A stretch of 64,000 bases of DNA from Bacteroidota bacterium. Its GTDB lineage: Bacteria > Bacteroidota > Bacteroidia > 2-12-FULL-35-15. Under the pieces are notes generated by a model that did no database searches, had not been told where the DNA came from, and saw nothing but the letters and a program-made list of their open reading frames with translations. The stretch spans positions 310,001-374,000 of the forward strand of contig CANNHN010000002.1 in assembly GCA_947504725.1 (NCBI GenBank), in the 5' to 3' direction. The position numbers and the translations under genes were made by a program. Position 1 is the first letter of the stretch, and each line of letters begins with the position of its first letter. Shown in pieces: positions 34,462 to 63,939 of the stretch.

Positions 34462-34539
34462 GAGATTGCTTCGTTCCTCGCAATGACGATTCTAAAGAAG
34501 AACTCGCTCCCTCTCCTTCGGAGAGGGCTGGGGTGAGAT
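34462..34539. repeat. Two adjacent spacer repeats between thioredoxin-like and ALDH genes
   Basis: First, GAGATTGCTTCGTTCCTCGC plus AATGACG (34462-34488). Then CTCCCTCTCCTTCGGAGAGG plus GCTGGGGTGAG (34507-34537), containing the hairpin CCTCTCC-ttc-GGAGAGG. The latter family recurs at 39583-39610, 50050-50080, 57556-57590 and 57782-57818. Confidence 0.6.
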
Positions 34540-57352: not shown

Positions 57353-57385
57353 TTTGGAAGATTAAAAATTTGCGTCATATATTTG
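57353..57385 (+). promoter_or_regulatory. Promoter of the sulfur assimilation operon
   Basis: TTTG (57353-57356) is followed after exactly 21 bases by TATATTTG (57378-57385). This is a full match to the Bacteroidota pattern and has the same spacing as at gltX. The start of transcription should be near 57392, about 10 bases before the ATG of leader peptide 1. Confidence 0.75.
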
Positions 57386-57402
57386 CAACGCAATAAGAAA
57401 CC

Positions 57403-57474
57403 ATGAACAACAACTTTACATATACGTTAACTACTTCAAACAGCCCAATGATGTGCTGTATGATGTGTGCGTAA
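57403..57474 (+). CDS. Leader peptide 1, 23 codons, Met/Cys-rich
   Basis: ATG at 57403, TAA at 57472-57474. The first part (MNNNFTYTLTTSNS) is ordinary, then the peptide ends P-M-M-C-C-M-M-C-A. Seven of its last nine residues are Met or Cys (four Met, three Cys). It sits about 10 bases after the predicted transcription start, directly before an antiterminator/terminator pair and the sulfite reductase operon. This is the layout of an attenuator leader peptide that measures charged tRNA-Cys and tRNA-Met. Confidence 0.8.
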   Translation: MNNNFTYTLTTSNSPMMCCMMCA

Positions 57475-57478
57475 TTAT

Positions 57479-57550
57479 GGAAAGCCTGTTGTAACAACAT
57501 ATATTTTAAATCACATTTAAAAGGCTTTCCAGAAACGGGAAGCCTTTTTT
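57479..57550 (+). promoter_or_regulatory. Attenuator 1: antiterminator and terminator hairpins
   Basis: Segment A, GGAAAGCCT (57479-57487), starts four bases after the leader stop and pairs perfectly with AGGCTTTCC (57522-57530). The same segment B, read as AAAGGCTTTCC (57520-57530), instead pairs with C, GGGAAGCCTTT (57537-57547), and is followed by T through 57550, an intrinsic terminator. A-B and B-C exclude each other. A ribosome that finishes the leader covers A and lets the terminator form. One stalled at the Met/Cys codons leaves A free. Confidence 0.85.
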
Positions 57551-57555
57551 GCATT

Positions 57556-57590
57556 CTCCCTCTCCTTTGGATAGGGTCGGGGTGAGGTAA
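57556..57590. repeat. Left spacer repeat flanking attenuator 2
   Basis: CTCCCTCTCCTTTGGATAGG then GTCGGGGTGAGGTAA. Its end GGGGTGAGGTAA is inverted as TTACCTCACCCT at 57782-57793 on the far side of attenuator 2. Confidence 0.55.
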
Positions 57591-57612
57591 ACAAACAAAA
57601 CAAAAGAACAAA

Positions 57613-57723
57613 ATGACAATTTTCAATTTTCAATTTTTAATTTTCAATCTAACAATGTGTATGTGTTGTATGATGTATCTGCGAATGCGGAAGGCAACCA
57701 TATTGCATTATTGTAAAAGATAA
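57613..57723 (+). CDS. Leader peptide 2, 36 codons, Met/Cys cluster without nearby stop
   Basis: ATG at 57613, TAA at 57721-57723. The core M-C-M-C-C-M-M-Y lies at codons 15-22. Translation could also begin at the internal ATG at 57655. The DNA around the core (ATGTGTTGTATGATGT) matches leader 1 (ATGTGCTGTATGATGT) almost exactly, so the two units are paralogous. Where leader 1 stops (TAA) this one reads CGA, and the frame continues through segment A for 13 further codons. It may be a degenerate or differently tuned leader. Confidence 0.6.
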   Translation: MTIFNFQFLIFNLTMCMCCMMYLRMRKATILHYCKR

Positions 57724-57780
57724 AAAAAGATAAAGCAAAATTTGAAAGCCCTTCCGCAGCAATGCAGAAGGGCTTTTTTT
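57686..57780 (+). promoter_or_regulatory. Attenuator 2: antiterminator and terminator hairpins
   Basis: Segment A, TGCGGAAGG (57686-57694), pairs perfectly with B, CCTTCCGCA (57750-57758). B in the longer form AAAGCCCTTC (57745-57754) pairs with C, GAAGGGCTTT (57767-57776), and an extended T-run to 57780 completes an intrinsic terminator. The architecture is the same as in attenuator 1, but the pairing sequences differ: both stems are conserved in form, not in sequence. The sulfite reductase ATG follows 92 bases later. Confidence 0.82.
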
Positions 57781-57781
57781 A

Positions 57782-57818
57782 TTACCTCACCCTGCCCTCT
57801 CCTTGAAAAAGGAGAGGG
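57782..57818. repeat. Right spacer repeat flanking attenuator 2
   Basis: TTACCTCACCCTGCCCTCTC then CTTGAAAAAGGAGAGGG, containing the hairpin CCCTCTCCTT-gaa-AAGGAGAGGG-like stem. Inverse of the repeat at 57556-57590 in its first 12 bases. Confidence 0.55.
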
Positions 57819-57872
57819 TTCTAAAAAGAGGTAGTATAAACACACATTAAACCAATAAACAAGTGAACTAAC

Positions 57873-60008
57873 ATGCAAAGCTTTCAAACAGAAATAGAAA
57901 ATCTCCCGAACAAATCGGGACAGGCTCTGGTAGAAAAGGATATAATTGAACTTGAACAAAAAATTCATGCCTTCCGAAATGGCACATTGAACGAAGAAAA
58001 ATTTCGCTCTCTTCGTTTGGCACGTGGTGTTTACGGTCAACGTCAACAAGGTGTTCAGATGATTCGAATCAAATTGCCATTTGGTAAAGTAACCGGGAAA
58101 CAATTGTTACGCATTGCGGATATATCGGATGAATATTCAAATGGTAATCTACATTTAACAACACGTCAGGATGTACAAATCCATTTTGTGAGTTTGGACA
58201 AAACCCCGGAATTGTGGGCGAAACTCGAACAAGATGATATCACCTTGCGTGAAGCCTGCGGGAATACTGTCCGCAACATCACCGCATCTGCAGTCGCAGG
58301 CATCGATCCGAAAGAACCATTTGATGTTTCTCCGTATGCTCAGGAAATGTTTAAATACTTTTTGAGAAAGCCATTCGGACAAGAGTTGGGCAGAAAATTA
58401 AAGTTCGCTTTTTCATCGAACGATGAAGATACTGCTTACACTTTTATGCACGATTTAGGGTTTATTCCAAAAGTGAAAATCATTGACGGGAAAATCACCA
58501 GAGGCTTTAAAGTGCTTGTTGGCGGAGGGTTGGGAGCGCAACCCTTTTTAGCGAAAACAGCATTTGAGTTTTTAGAAGAAGATCAAATCATTCCGTTTAC
58601 GGAAGCATTGGTGCGTGTTTTCGACAGACATGGTGAACGCGCAAGTCGTCATAAAGCAAGGATTAAGTATTTGGTGAATAAAATTGGAATTGAAGAGGTG
58701 TTGCGAGTGGTGGCGGAAGAGCGTTTGGCATTGGGTTATTCAACCTTCCTAATTAATTACGATGCAGTGCCGGTGAAACAAAACACGTCAGCCGCATCTT
58801 TCACGACATTTAAAATAAGTGATAATAAAAAATATCAAGATTGGTTACTTAGTAATGTATTTGAGCAAAAGCAGCAAGGCTTTTATGGTGTGAACATTAA
58901 AATTCAGTTAGGTAATATCAGTTCACACACCGCACGCGAGTTCGTTAGTTTAGTTAATACCTATGCAGCAGACGACATACGCGTAACGGTAAATCAAGGT
59001 TTGTTGTTGAAATTTGTTTTAAAAGAAGCCTTGCCCGCTTTGTTCAAAGCATTGGATAAATTAGGATTAGCAGAACCGGGATTTGATAGCGTGGGCGACA
59101 TTACTGCTTGTCCGGGTACCGACACCTGCAACTTGGGAATATCCAGCAGCACCGGAATCACCAAAGAGTTGGAAAGAGTGGTGAAAGAAGAGTTTCCGGA
59201 ACTATTGTTTAACAATGATATTAAAATAAAAATCAGTGGTTGTATGAATTCCTGCGGGCAACATAGTTTGGCGCAAATCGGATTCCATGGAAGTTCATTT
59301 AAAAATGGAACCGCTGTGGTCCCGGCATTGCAACTGGTTTTGGGTGGTGGAATTGTTGGAAACGGAGAAGGAAGAATTTCTGATAAAATTATCAAAGTGC
59401 CAAGTAAACGCGGTCCGGCTGTGTTGAGAACACTGCTAGTTGATTTCGAAAAGAATGCTGTTGAAGGAGAATATTTTAATAATTATTACGATAAACAAGG
59501 GAAAGATTATTTCTACCAATTATTAAAACCACATGCTGATAATAGCACCTTGACTCCTGAAGAGTATTTAGATTGGGGACATACAGAGGAATTTAAAACA
59601 GAGATTGGAGTGGGAGAATGTGCTGGAGTTATGATTGATTTAGTTGCGACTTTAATTTTTGAAGCTGAAGAAAAATTGGATTGGGCAGAAAATTCGTTTA
59701 ACGAAAATTTATTTGCAGACAGTATTTACCACAGTTATGCAACCATCATTAGTGGAGCAAAAGCGTTGTTGTTAGGAAAAAGTTTGAAGACAAATACGCA
59801 AAATGACATCATCAATGATTTTGATAAACATTTTGTAGATACGTCAGAAATCAATGTAAATGGTACATTCAGAGAGTTTGTATTACAGATAAATAAGAAA
59901 GAGCCATCAAAAGAATTTGCTGAAAAATTCTTAAAAGAAGCGAAAGAATTTATTAAACAAGCAAGTGCATTGAGAGAAATGCAATTGCAGGAGGAAACAA
60001 CAAAATGA
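57873..60008 (+). CDS. Siroheme sulfite/nitrite reductase with C-terminal HEPN-like domain
   Basis: 711 residues. Residues 1-560 are an assimilatory sulfite/nitrite reductase. It shows LTTRQDVQIHFV in the first half-repeat and EACGNTVRNITASAVAGID at the substrate site. The [4Fe-4S]/siroheme ligands are C-x5-C in TACPGTDTCNLG (near 413) and C-x3-C in SGCMNSCGQH (near 456). Context (CysH-type reductase, SUMT, TauE) favours sulfite as substrate. Residues about 580-711 are an all-helical extension (AEEKLDWAENSF, LFADSIYHSYATIISGAKAL, FDKHFVD) resembling a HEPN domain and absent from classical enzymes. Its stop overlaps a 48-codon frame by ATGA. Confidence 0.9.
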   Translation: MQSFQTEIENLPNKSGQALVEKDIIELEQKIHAFRNGTLNEEKFRSLRLARGVYGQRQQGVQMIRIKLPFGKVTGKQLLRIADISDEYSNGNLHLTTRQDVQIHFVSLDKTPELWAKLEQDDITLREACGNTVRNITASAVAGIDPKEPFDVSPYAQEMFKYFLRKPFGQELGRKLKFAFSSNDEDTAYTFMHDLGFIPKVKIIDGKITRGFKVLVGGGLGAQPFLAKTAFEFLEEDQIIPFTEALVRVFDRHGERASRHKARIKYLVNKIGIEEVLRVVAEERLALGYSTFLINYDAVPVKQNTSAASFTTFKISDNKKYQDWLLSNVFEQKQQGFYGVNIKIQLGNISSHTAREFVSLVNTYAADDIRVTVNQGLLLKFVLKEALPALFKALDKLGLAEPGFDSVGDITACPGTDTCNLGISSSTGITKELERVVKEEFPELLFNNDIKIKISGCMNSCGQHSLAQIGFHGSSFKNGTAVVPALQLVLGGGIVGNGEGRISDKIIKVPSKRGPAVLRTLLVDFEKNAVEGEYFNNYYDKQGKDYFYQLLKPHADNSTLTPEEYLDWGHTEEFKTEIGVGECAGVMIDLVATLIFEAEEKLDWAENSFNENLFADSIYHSYATIISGAKALLLGKSLKTNTQNDIINDFDKHFVDTSEINVNGTFREFVLQINKKEPSKEFAEKFLKEAKEFIKQASALREMQLQEETTK

Positions 60009-60911: not shown

Positions 60912-61652
60912 ATGAAAAAGCAAGTTGTTTTACTTCTTTTATTGATAGTTACTACTGTTTCTCTTGCTCAAAAGAATGTGAGTCACAACAACCTTGTTTG
61001 GTTTGGTGATTTTACAAAAGCAAGGTTGAACGATAAATGGAGTATTTATCTTGATTTTGGTTTCAGGCGAACTGAGTGGCTGAATAAGTGGAGTCAAGTG
61101 CTTGTTCGCCCTGGAATTACCTGTCATTTTAATAAAAGTGTTTCGGCAACAGTTGGAGTGGCTTATTTCAGTCACTATACAGCAACTTACATTCGTCCCG
61201 AAGGCAGAGGTTGGCAGCAGTTTTTATTTAATGAAACCTATGGCAGAATTAGTGTGAATCATCGTTTAAGGGCAGAACAGCGTTTTTTTCAAAAGGTGAT
61301 TTCAAGTCAATTGGTTGACGGCTATAATTACAATAACCGTTTCAGATATCAATTGAATATTCAGGCTCCTTTTAATAAGAAACAAATGGACGACAAAACG
61401 CTTTATTTTTCGATTTCAGACGAAGTGTTTATAAATAGTGGCAAAGAGATACGAAACAATTACTTCGACCAGAACAGATTTGCAGTTGGGTTGGGCTATA
61501 AACTAAATGAGAGGCTAAATATTCTGGTTTCTTACACAAAAATATTTGTCCAAAGGGCAAAAGTGGATGCTTTTGAGGACAATAATGTGCTGGTTATCAA
61601 CCTTTATCATAATCTGGATTTCGGGAAAGAAACGCCAAAGAACACGAATTAA
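60912..61652 (+). CDS. DUF2490 outer membrane beta-barrel protein
   Basis: 246 residues with a signal peptide (VVLLLLLIVTTVSLAQ). DUF2490 signatures: LVWFGDFTKARLNDKWSIYL, DFGFRRTEW, VLVRPGITCHFN, YNNRFRYQLN, and alternating strands to a C-terminal LYHNLDFGKE. An outer membrane barrel is expected. The ATG directly follows the cobA stop, so it is firmly in the sulfur operon. Family function is unknown; a link to sulfur-compound uptake or release is inferred only from the operon. Confidence 0.85.
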   Translation: MKKQVVLLLLLIVTTVSLAQKNVSHNNLVWFGDFTKARLNDKWSIYLDFGFRRTEWLNKWSQVLVRPGITCHFNKSVSATVGVAYFSHYTATYIRPEGRGWQQFLFNETYGRISVNHRLRAEQRFFQKVISSQLVDGYNYNNRFRYQLNIQAPFNKKQMDDKTLYFSISDEVFINSGKEIRNNYFDQNRFAVGLGYKLNERLNILVSYTKIFVQRAKVDAFEDNNVLVINLYHNLDFGKETPKNTN

Positions 61653-61689: not shown

Positions 61690-61719
61690 TTTAAACATTG
61701 TTTAAACAAGATTTAAACA
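61690..61719. promoter_or_regulatory. Three phased TTTAAACA direct repeats
   Basis: TTTAAACA occurs at 61690, 61701 and 61712, exactly 11 bases apart, so on one face of the helix. The middle copy forms the palindrome TTGTTTAAACAA (61698-61709). They lie 65-95 bases before the ATG of the fusion gene and could be an operator or part of an internal promoter. Confidence 0.45.
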
Positions 61720-61784
61720 ATAAATCAAACAGAAATCAACATGATTTCAACAGGAAACTAACAAAAAGACTATTTTCGCATACC

Positions 61785-63287
61785 ATGACAAAGAACGCAT
61801 CTTCCAACCATTTATTTCCCGTCTTCTTCAAGTTGGAGAACTTGCATATTCTTATTGTAGGTGGAGGAAACATTGGGTTAGAAAAGATATCAGCGGTTTT
61901 GAATAATAGTCCGGATGCAAAAGTCACTCTAGTCGCCCGCAATGTATTGCCAGAAATAAAAGTATTTCAGGAGAAATCCGAAAAACTCATCACTATTGAA
62001 AGAGCGTTTGAAATAAGCGATTTAGATGGGAAAGACTTGATAATAGCAGCAACAGGCGATAGAGCTATAAGTGAATTGATCCGAGCAGAAGCAACAAAGC
62101 GAAAAATATTAATCAACGTTGCCGATACGCCAGATTTATGTGATTTCTATTTAGGGTCGATTGTACAAAAAGGAGATTTGAAAATCGCTATTTCTACAAA
62201 TGGCAAATCGCCAACCCTTGCAAAACGTTTAAAGGAAGTCTTTAATGAAGCGTTACCTGATGATACTCAGCAAAGCATCGATAATCTTAATAAATTTCGC
62301 AATCAATTAAAAGGAGATTTTACAAACAAGGTAAAAAAGCTAAACGAAGCTACTGCTGTGCTGATAGATCAAAAAGAAAATGTTAAGCAGCAGTTTAATA
62401 AGCGAATTTTGTTTGTTTCTCTATATGCACTATCTGTTATTGCTTTAATGTTAGTTGGACATTTGTTTTTTACACTTGTCCCGCTAACAACCATTGGCAG
62501 CTATTTTTCAAGTTTAGCATCAAGTGTTGACGCTACCATTTTACTTTATATTTTGGGTGGATTTGTTGCTCAAATGATTGATGGGGCATTGGGAATGGCA
62601 TATGGAGTAAGCGTTACAACATTTTTATTGAGTTTGGGAATTCCTTCAATAACTCCAGCTGTGGCGAGTGCGAGTATGCATGCATCAGAAGTTTTTTCTA
62701 CGGGAACATCTTCTTTAGTTTACATGCGTTATAAAAACGTCAACAATAAATTATTTAAAACTCTTTTAATCCCAGGAGCTTTAGGAGCAATAGCTGGTGC
62801 CTTTGCAATTTCTTATATTAGTAAAGACTACGTTAATTATGTAAAGCCGTTCGTTTCGATTTACACTTTATTCTTGGGAGTATTAATTGTTCGTAAAGCA
62901 TTAAACTTGCATATTAAAACTCGTAAAAAGTTTAAAAGGATTAAACCCGTTGCTTTAGTAGGCGGATTCCTTGACTCTGTTGGAGGTGGTGGTTGGGGTC
63001 CAATTGTTACAACAACTCTAATTGCCGGAGGAAGAAATTTTAAATATGCAATAGGTTCTTCGCATGTTGCCAAATTTTTTGTGGCACTTATAAGCACTGT
63101 TACATTTGTTTCAATTATAGGATTGAGCCATTGGCAAATTATTTTCGGATTAGTTATTGGAAGTATGATTGCTGCGCCCATTTCTATTTATGTATCAACA
63201 AAAATTTCAAACAAATGGGGATTAATTTTAGTTGGGATGCTTGTAATAATAGTTAGTTTTAAAACTTTAATTTTTGCTTTTTTATAA
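61785..63287 (+). CDS. Siroheme synthase (Met8/CysG-N) fused to TauE/SafE (TSUP) permease
   Basis: 500 residues from ATG at 61785; an in-frame TTG upstream lies in the TTTAAACA repeats. Residues 10-200 are a precorrin-2 dehydrogenase/ferrochelatase domain: HILIVGGGNIGLEKISAVL (NAD site), LIIAATGD, NVADTPDLCDFYLGSIV (catalytic Asp) and KSPTLAKRLKEVF. Residues 207-500 are eight or so membrane segments of the TSUP family with its two inverted-repeat signatures, GGFVAQMIDGALGMAYGV and GGFLDSVGGGGWGPIV. TSUP proteins move sulfite, sulfoacetate or similar anions. The fusion joins cofactor making and sulfur-anion transport in one polypeptide, next to the reductase that uses both. Confidence 0.93.
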   Translation: MTKNASSNHLFPVFFKLENLHILIVGGGNIGLEKISAVLNNSPDAKVTLVARNVLPEIKVFQEKSEKLITIERAFEISDLDGKDLIIAATGDRAISELIRAEATKRKILINVADTPDLCDFYLGSIVQKGDLKIAISTNGKSPTLAKRLKEVFNEALPDDTQQSIDNLNKFRNQLKGDFTNKVKKLNEATAVLIDQKENVKQQFNKRILFVSLYALSVIALMLVGHLFFTLVPLTTIGSYFSSLASSVDATILLYILGGFVAQMIDGALGMAYGVSVTTFLLSLGIPSITPAVASASMHASEVFSTGTSSLVYMRYKNVNNKLFKTLLIPGALGAIAGAFAISYISKDYVNYVKPFVSIYTLFLGVLIVRKALNLHIKTRKKFKRIKPVALVGGFLDSVGGGGWGPIVTTTLIAGGRNFKYAIGSSHVAKFFVALISTVTFVSIIGLSHWQIIFGLVIGSMIAAPISIYVSTKISNKWGLILVGMLVIIVSFKTLIFAFL

Positions 63288-63291
63288 TAAA

Positions 63292-63939
63292 ATGAATCTA
63301 GAAGAGCTAAATAAAAAGTATTTGTTGCTTAGTCCAGAAGATCGTATTCACGAGCTTTACAAAGATTTTGGTAAAGTATTGTTTACATCATCTTTTGGAA
63401 CAACTTCAGCTTTTTTATTGCATTTGTTTCATAAAGTAAAACCAAACGAAACCATTTATTTTTTAGACACTACCTATCATTTTAATGAAACGATTGAATA
63501 CAAAGAGAACTTGACTCAGCTGTTGAATTTGAAAGTAATAGATGTAAAGCCAGAAGTTTGGAAAAACAACTTTACGAATCAAGATAGAACGTGGAACTCT
63601 GACCCCGACTTGTGTTGCTCGATTAATAAAGTGGAACCAATTGAAAAGATAAAAGTGAATTTTGATGTCTGGGTATCTGGATTAATGACATCGCAAACTA
63701 CTCATCGTCAGAACTTAAAAGTGTTTGAACTGAAAGAAGACATTGTTAAGTTTTATCCATTGATAGATCAAAACGAAAAAATTGCTAAGGAATATATTGC
63801 TCAGCACAATCTCCCACAGCACCCCTTGCTTTCGCAAGGATACAGTTCTGTCGGCTGTTTTCACTGCACTGTGGCCGGCAAAGGGCGAAGCGGAAGATGG
63901 GTAAACAAATCAAAAACGGAGTGCGGATTGCATTTGTAA
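63292..63939 (+). CDS. cysH: [4Fe-4S] adenylylsulfate (APS) reductase, CysH family
   Basis: 215 residues from ATG at 63292; an in-frame TTG six codons earlier is less likely. Phosphosulfate-binding segment: LFTSSFGTTSAFLLHL. Cluster ligands are present: CC at 108-109 and C-x-x-C at 189-192 (GCFHC), the set found in APS-specific enzymes and absent from PAPS reductases. The catalytic Cys211 is in KTECGLHL at the C terminus. It makes sulfite and AMP from APS with thioredoxin. Sulfate adenylyltransferase genes are expected beyond the right edge. After its stop only 61 bases remain, holding a CTCAAT-ttag-ATTGAG hairpin. Confidence 0.93.
   Translation: MNLEELNKKYLLLSPEDRIHELYKDFGKVLFTSSFGTTSAFLLHLFHKVKPNETIYFLDTTYHFNETIEYKENLTQLLNLKVIDVKPEVWKNNFTNQDRTWNSDPDLCCSINKVEPIEKIKVNFDVWVSGLMTSQTTHRQNLKVFELKEDIVKFYPLIDQNEKIAKEYIAQHNLPQHPLLSQGYSSVGCFHCTVAGKGRSGRWVNKSKTECGLHL

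Follow-up and report, generated by a model that had tools for sequence, protein, structure and literature searches.

How is sulfite reduction controlled in a member of the Bacteroidota? The question is raised by a 64,000-nucleotide stretch of contig CANNHN010000002.1 (hereafter the window), in which a sulfite-reduction operon is preceded by two short open reading frames (ORFs), each followed by a terminator-like hairpin. To our knowledge, little has been described of how Bacteroidota control sulfur assimilation. The trp, his, leu, ilv, and thr leaders of enterobacteria are the classical ribosome-mediated transcription attenuators, and leaders that carry codons for several amino acids are known as such (ilv and thr). 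On the evidence of the sequence, the operon in the window is very probably controlled by two ribosome-mediated transcription attenuators that act in series behind a single promoter.

The operon downstream of the leaders

The genes assigned to the operon are as follows, with the Pfam matches on which each assignment rests.

57873-60008, + strand: sulfite/nitrite reductase family protein (NIR_SIR), 711 amino acids
60135-60911, + strand: tetrapyrrole methylase of the SUMT/CobA type (TP_methylase)
60912-61652, + strand: DUF2490 protein
61698-63287, + strand: N-terminal part of siroheme synthase fused to a TauE/SafE sulfite exporter (NAD_binding_7, Sirohm_synth_M, TauE)
63274-63939, + strand: PAPS/APS reductase family protein (PAPS_reduct)

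Pfam agrees with the names that a preliminary description of this DNA had given to the sulfite reductase, SUMT, siroheme synthase/TauE, and APS reductase genes. The sulfite reductase also has a C-terminal match to a HEPN-like domain (PF05168, E = 1e-5).

The first leader unit

The promoter is of the Bacteroidota type, and its boxes, which had been placed 21 bases apart, are read directly from the sequence as TTTG-N21-TATATTTG (57353-57385). Unit 1 comprises the following features.

57353-57356, + strand: -33-like promoter box TTTG, from sequence reading; TTTG at a spacing of 20-21 nt is kept in most family unit-1 leaders
57378-57385, + strand: -7 box TATATTTG (TAnnTTTG), located 17-19 nt 5' of the leader ATG in family unit-1 leaders
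57403 (ATG) to 57474 (end of TAA), + strand: leader ORF 1, MNNNFTYTLTTSNSPMMCCMMCA, 23 codons; length and frame are kept in relatives
57448-57468, + strand: regulatory codons ATG ATG TGC TGT ATG ATG TGT; Met and Cys are conserved, with TGT/TGC exchange
57479-57487, + strand: segment A1, 5' arm of the antiterminator, GGAAAGCCT
57522-57530, + strand: segment B1, shared arm, AGGCTTTCC; the hairpin arm starts at 57519-57521
57537-57550, + strand: segment C1, GGGAAGCCT (57537-57545), then a T-run to 57550; intrinsic terminator 1 is 57519-57550

The predicted RNA start lies approximately 10 nt 5' of the ATG of leader 1, and the 23-codon leader, ending in P-MMCCMMC-A, was found where the preliminary description had located it. 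The 9 perfect pairs between A1 and B1 were likewise recovered and are mutually exclusive with the B1:C1 hairpin; this hairpin, given as 11 pairs in that description, has 10-12 pairs with one G-U, and its T-run stood as described. Terminator 1 has a predicted hairpin energy of -14.4 kcal/mol, and the energy of A1:B1 was rarely equalled by dinucleotide shuffles of the A region (p = 0.003, z = -6.7). Read in this way, the locus has the expected parts of an attenuator: sulfur-amino-acid codons, as before other sulfur operons, a predicted intrinsic terminator before the operon, and a putative antiterminator that excludes the terminator and would be freed by a stalled ribosome, a geometry that is clear for unit 1.

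We infer that ribosome stalling, termination, and a response to both amino acids would operate as follows. When Cys-tRNA and Met-tRNA are charged, the ribosome would reach the end of leader 1 and cover A1, whereupon B1 would pair with C1 and transcription would stop at approximately 57550. When Cys or Met is scarce, the ribosome would stall in MMCCMMC and leave A1 free, A1 would pair with B1 while C1 is still to be transcribed, and RNA polymerase would continue to unit 2, which would impose a second test before the operon is transcribed. Folding of unit 1 with a ribosome footprint masked at the Met/Cys block gave the antiterminator, and folding with the footprint masked at the stop codon gave the terminator alone. 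Antitermination was also predicted when unit 1 was folded without any ribosome, which counts against the model.

Conservation of the codons and the amino acids that may be sensed

Scanning 36 family genomes for the 18-base codon block with at most one mismatch detected it in 18 of them; a reversed control pattern was found in 0 of the 36, a control that underestimates coding coincidences among the matches. Some matches were coincidences of this kind (rpsG-like) and were removed from the leader set. Two types of leader were distinguished. Type 1 has 23 codons, ends in MMCCMMC[I/A/F/V], and lies before sulfite reductase, before an aldo-keto reductase gene preceding sulfite reductase, or before homoserine dehydrogenase; type 2 ends in MMCCMMCC[I/D] and lies before the APS kinase gene cysC. 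The genome of the window also has a leader of the cysC type (L003). The preliminary description had staked its reading on conservation of the Met and Cys codons, and their positions proved nearly invariant in 20 unit-1 and cysC family leaders, in which Cys codons swap between TGT and TGC and the N-terminal part of the peptide is variable. In a sample of 14 sulfite-reductase loci picked without use of the motif, 11 had leaders; sulfite reductases without such leaders are those of L080, L085, and L086.

Across 395 genomes of the phylum, the exact 18-base pattern occurred in only 4 and is too strict at this level because most lineages have variant codon blocks. In a scan of named genomes, Kordia, Salinimicrobium, Flavobacterium, and a Saprospiraceae MAG were found to have a leader of the same type upstream of metY, in many cases with metX and hom-like genes next. 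Gene names outside the window operon are readings of translated starts and not results of profile searches; on this basis, leaders were also placed before cysH-cysD-cysN in a Flavobacterium (L054), a serine acetyltransferase gene with cysK (L114), a rhodanese gene from a different class (L101), and one further sulfite reductase gene (L125). Among 22 metY orthologues sampled without use of the motif, 13 had Met/Cys- or Cys-rich leaders, and none were found in 660 mononucleotide-shuffled upstream regions.

These leaders bear on which amino acid is sensed. A tentative alternative, to which we give a modest probability, is that Cys alone is sensed and the Met codons are spacers, in effect a mycobacterial-like Cys attenuator with an intrinsic terminator. 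Every leader contains Cys codons, the one element that all of them share, and the metY leaders of several other families are dominated by Cys (TCCCCCC, SKCCCCTAA, and CWCMCCCCCCMLS). By contrast, the internal Met codons are conserved equally with the Cys codons in the 20 family leaders, and Met-rich versions (MMCMMW and MMCCMMCMMC) recur in Flavobacteriaceae beside methionine genes, both of which count against this alternative. Several of the Cys-dominated leaders 5' of metY orthologues (e.g., TCCCCCC; L140, L144, L147, L150, L154, and L156) have no obvious intrinsic terminator, and the mechanism at leaders lacking a clear one may differ.

Three short ORFs were noted separately. In an Oscillospiraceae MAG, a leader-like MKMMCCMMCSQ ORF precedes cysteine/methionine-synthesis-like genes (L055, 4794-4883, reverse strand coordinates) and is possibly a convergent Met/Cys leader outside Bacteroidota. 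In a Vampirovibrionales MAG (L049, 7175-7300, reverse strand coordinates), an MMMCCMMC ORF is followed by a strong terminator, with A:B pairing that was not significant. At L115 (1450-1539, reverse strand coordinates), a short PCCFAMCCMM ORF and a terminator precede a gene that resembles glutamate dehydrogenase, which would not have been expected as a target.

The second leader unit and the serial arrangement

Unit 2 comprises the following features.

57613-57723, + strand: leader ORF 2, MTIFNFQFLIFNLTMCMCCMMYLRMRKATILHYCKR, 36 codons, conserved in 11 family loci
57655-57675, + strand: regulatory codons ATG TGT ATG TGT TGT ATG ATG (MCMCCMM)
57687-57695, + strand: segment A2, within leader ORF 2
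57703-57713, + strand: candidate protector arm TGCATTATTGT, which would pair with ACAATGTGTA at 57653-57662
57748-57757, + strand: segment B2
57767-57780, + strand: segment C2 (57767-57773) and T-run (57774-57780), forming predicted intrinsic terminator 2

As the preliminary description proposed, unit 2 (57613-57780) is built on the same plan, with stems of its own and a near-identical block (MCMCCMM versus MMCCMMC), but the placement of A relative to the stop codon differs between the units. Terminator 2 has a predicted hairpin energy of -20.7 kcal/mol followed by T7, and the energy of A2:B2 was rarely equalled by dinucleotide shuffles of the A region (p = 0.003, z = -3.6; group median p = 0.008). 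The stop codon lies approximately 26 nt 3' of A2, and a ribosome at the stop (57721) would therefore leave A2 uncovered. Pairing of ACAATGTGTA, at the block start, with TGCATTATTGT, at the leader end, recurs in one register in approximately 8 of the 11 unit-2 sequences, and a protector hairpin of this kind could resolve the masking problem; taken as a group, the unit-2 sequences showed no significance for this pairing against shuffles. The model thus explains only in part how unit 2 would switch.

The TAnnTTTG box is absent at the matching place 5' of unit-2 leaders in the family leaders compared, and Kordia leaders display the same contrast between unit 1 and unit 2. With a box before unit 1 and none before unit 2, both units are most simply read serially from one promoter. 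The serial double arrangement, already pointed out in the preliminary description, is conserved at family sulfite-reductase loci and in metY operons. Allowing for contig and locus ends, the two-unit layout fits all 11 leader-bearing sulfite-reductase loci; the sequence available for locus L077 and contig L083 starts only after unit 1 and before unit 2, and both units are visible wherever the sequence reaches far enough. Most metY leaders, too, occur in pairs of dissimilar leaders placed one after the other (L040, L041, L046, L052, L062, L065, L066, L067, L069, L070, L071, L099, L113, and L117).

It is rather unlikely that unit 2 is mainly a second terminator with a translated spacer and that unit 1 is the sensor. 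The position of the unit-2 stop codon beyond A2 would fit such a role, as would the weaker and more variable A2:B2 pairing; against it, the unit-2 Met/Cys codons, the A2 core GCGGA, and the terminator are conserved at 11 family loci, and a comparable second unit is present in metY operons.

The units are separated by a REP-like intergenic repeat, CCCTCTCCTTTGGATAGGGTCGGGGTGAGGT (57558-57588), which occurs again at 34509-34539 of the window; a related palindromic piece lies 3' of unit 2 (57785-57818), and similar pieces adjoin leaders in relatives (L009 and L012).

Stem complementarity across leaders

A:B pairing was evaluated in 58 leaders in 12 groups, between which the stems are unrelated, with B taken as the arm plus the loop; a test of the terminator arm only misses pairing that extends into the loop, as in Kordia unit 2. 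Complementarity exceeded that of shuffles in 46 of the 58 leaders at p < 0.05. Because leaders inside a group are related, the fair figure is the one at group level (Fisher over the 12 group medians, p = 1e-9). In most leaders, 8-15 nt separate the final Met/Cys codon from the start of A. Given the established size of the ribosome footprint, a ribosome that stalled on the last codon of the block would have its leading edge at about this position, leaving A free. Pairing, whose conservation the preliminary description had also made a condition of its reading, is preserved in that A:B:C complementarity is kept with unrelated stems. Double compensatory changes are absent within the family. There, B is nearly invariant and covariation is one-sided and of the wobble type, since B must pair with A as well as with C.

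These data also bear on whether the products of the short ORFs are themselves functional, as small Met/Cys proteins that bind metal, for example, with ordinary terminators beside them. The Met/Cys peptide is conserved and annotation often misses functional small proteins, but outside the Met/Cys block the peptide is variable, A:B complementarity is maintained although the stems are unrelated, the ORFs are nearly always 5' of sulfur genes, and two different peptides occur in series, which make this explanation very improbable. That chance short ORFs happen to lie beside ordinary terminators has a negligible probability given the conservation in independent lineages, the gene context, and the shuffle tests, although approximately 18 of 23 inspected class-wide matches of a 15-base pattern outside the family were coding or non-leader coincidences, some outside-family pattern matches being Asp-Asp-Val-Leu-Tyr-Asp coding frames.

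Relation to known attenuators

A search of the window against Rfam at the gathering threshold returned only tRNA, with no match to Trp, His, Leu, Thr, or Phe leaders, T-box, or SAM elements, and matches below the threshold were weak and at chance level; this accords with the preliminary description, which could name no described family. The leaders share with the classical attenuators a short leader ORF, codons for the product amino acid, an antiterminator and an intrinsic terminator that exclude each other, and a biosynthetic operon downstream. Unlike the enterobacterial attenuators, they combine Met and Cys codons, form two serial units behind one promoter, and occur in a different phylum.

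Closer parallels involve Cys codons. Polycysteine attenuators in leaderless short ORFs have been reported in mycobacteria (Canestrari et al. 2020, as cited in PMC13236596), and as reported there they resemble the present leaders in that sulfur genes are preceded by a very short ORF containing Cys codons. Rather than a Cys-only run ending a leaderless ORF, the Bacteroidota leaders have alternating Met and Cys. Leaders with Cys runs were also predicted in Actinobacteria, without a conserved terminator hairpin (PMC1262725), whereas the Bacteroidota leaders have Met codons and pairs of intrinsic terminator and antiterminator. The uORFC-8-2 motif upstream of cysS combines a terminator stem and its U-run with an upstream ORF in which two Cys codons stand in tandem (PMC8632094). 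The Bacteroidota leaders similarly pair a Cys-codon upstream ORF with a U-run terminator stem, but uORFC-8-2, compared here by its description, precedes a cysteinyl-tRNA synthetase gene, forms a single unit, and has Cys codons only. Within the same phylum, strong clues for leader-peptide attenuation before amino-acid operons such as pheA and hisG were described in Flavobacterium psychrophilum (PMC9723704); the main text names elements of the pheA/hisG type and not Met/Cys leaders, and the attenuator list of that work could possibly overlap the metY leaders.

In literature searches with thin coverage of subscription papers, no direct description of Met/Cys leaders in Bacteroidota was found. The dual Met/Cys codons, the serial two-unit layout, and the broad spread in Bacteroidota set these leaders apart from known attenuators and seem to be undescribed in the sources searched.

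Implications

On balance, we think it probable that a sulfur-amino-acid regulon of Bacteroidota is under dual-input leaders (Cys or Met) that form a two-stage gate. Lineages including Flavobacteriaceae would have retained this gate at metY, and the family at its sulfite reductase, the same logic being preserved as stem sequences are replaced. If so, raw sequence would have revealed a widespread and testable regulon whose sensor, unusually, reads two kinds of codon and whose two stages are conserved. Many unannotated short ORFs 5' of metY, cysC, cysH, and sulfite reductase genes would be accounted for, and since cultured Flavobacterium and Kordia species carry the leaders, the regulon would be open to experiment.
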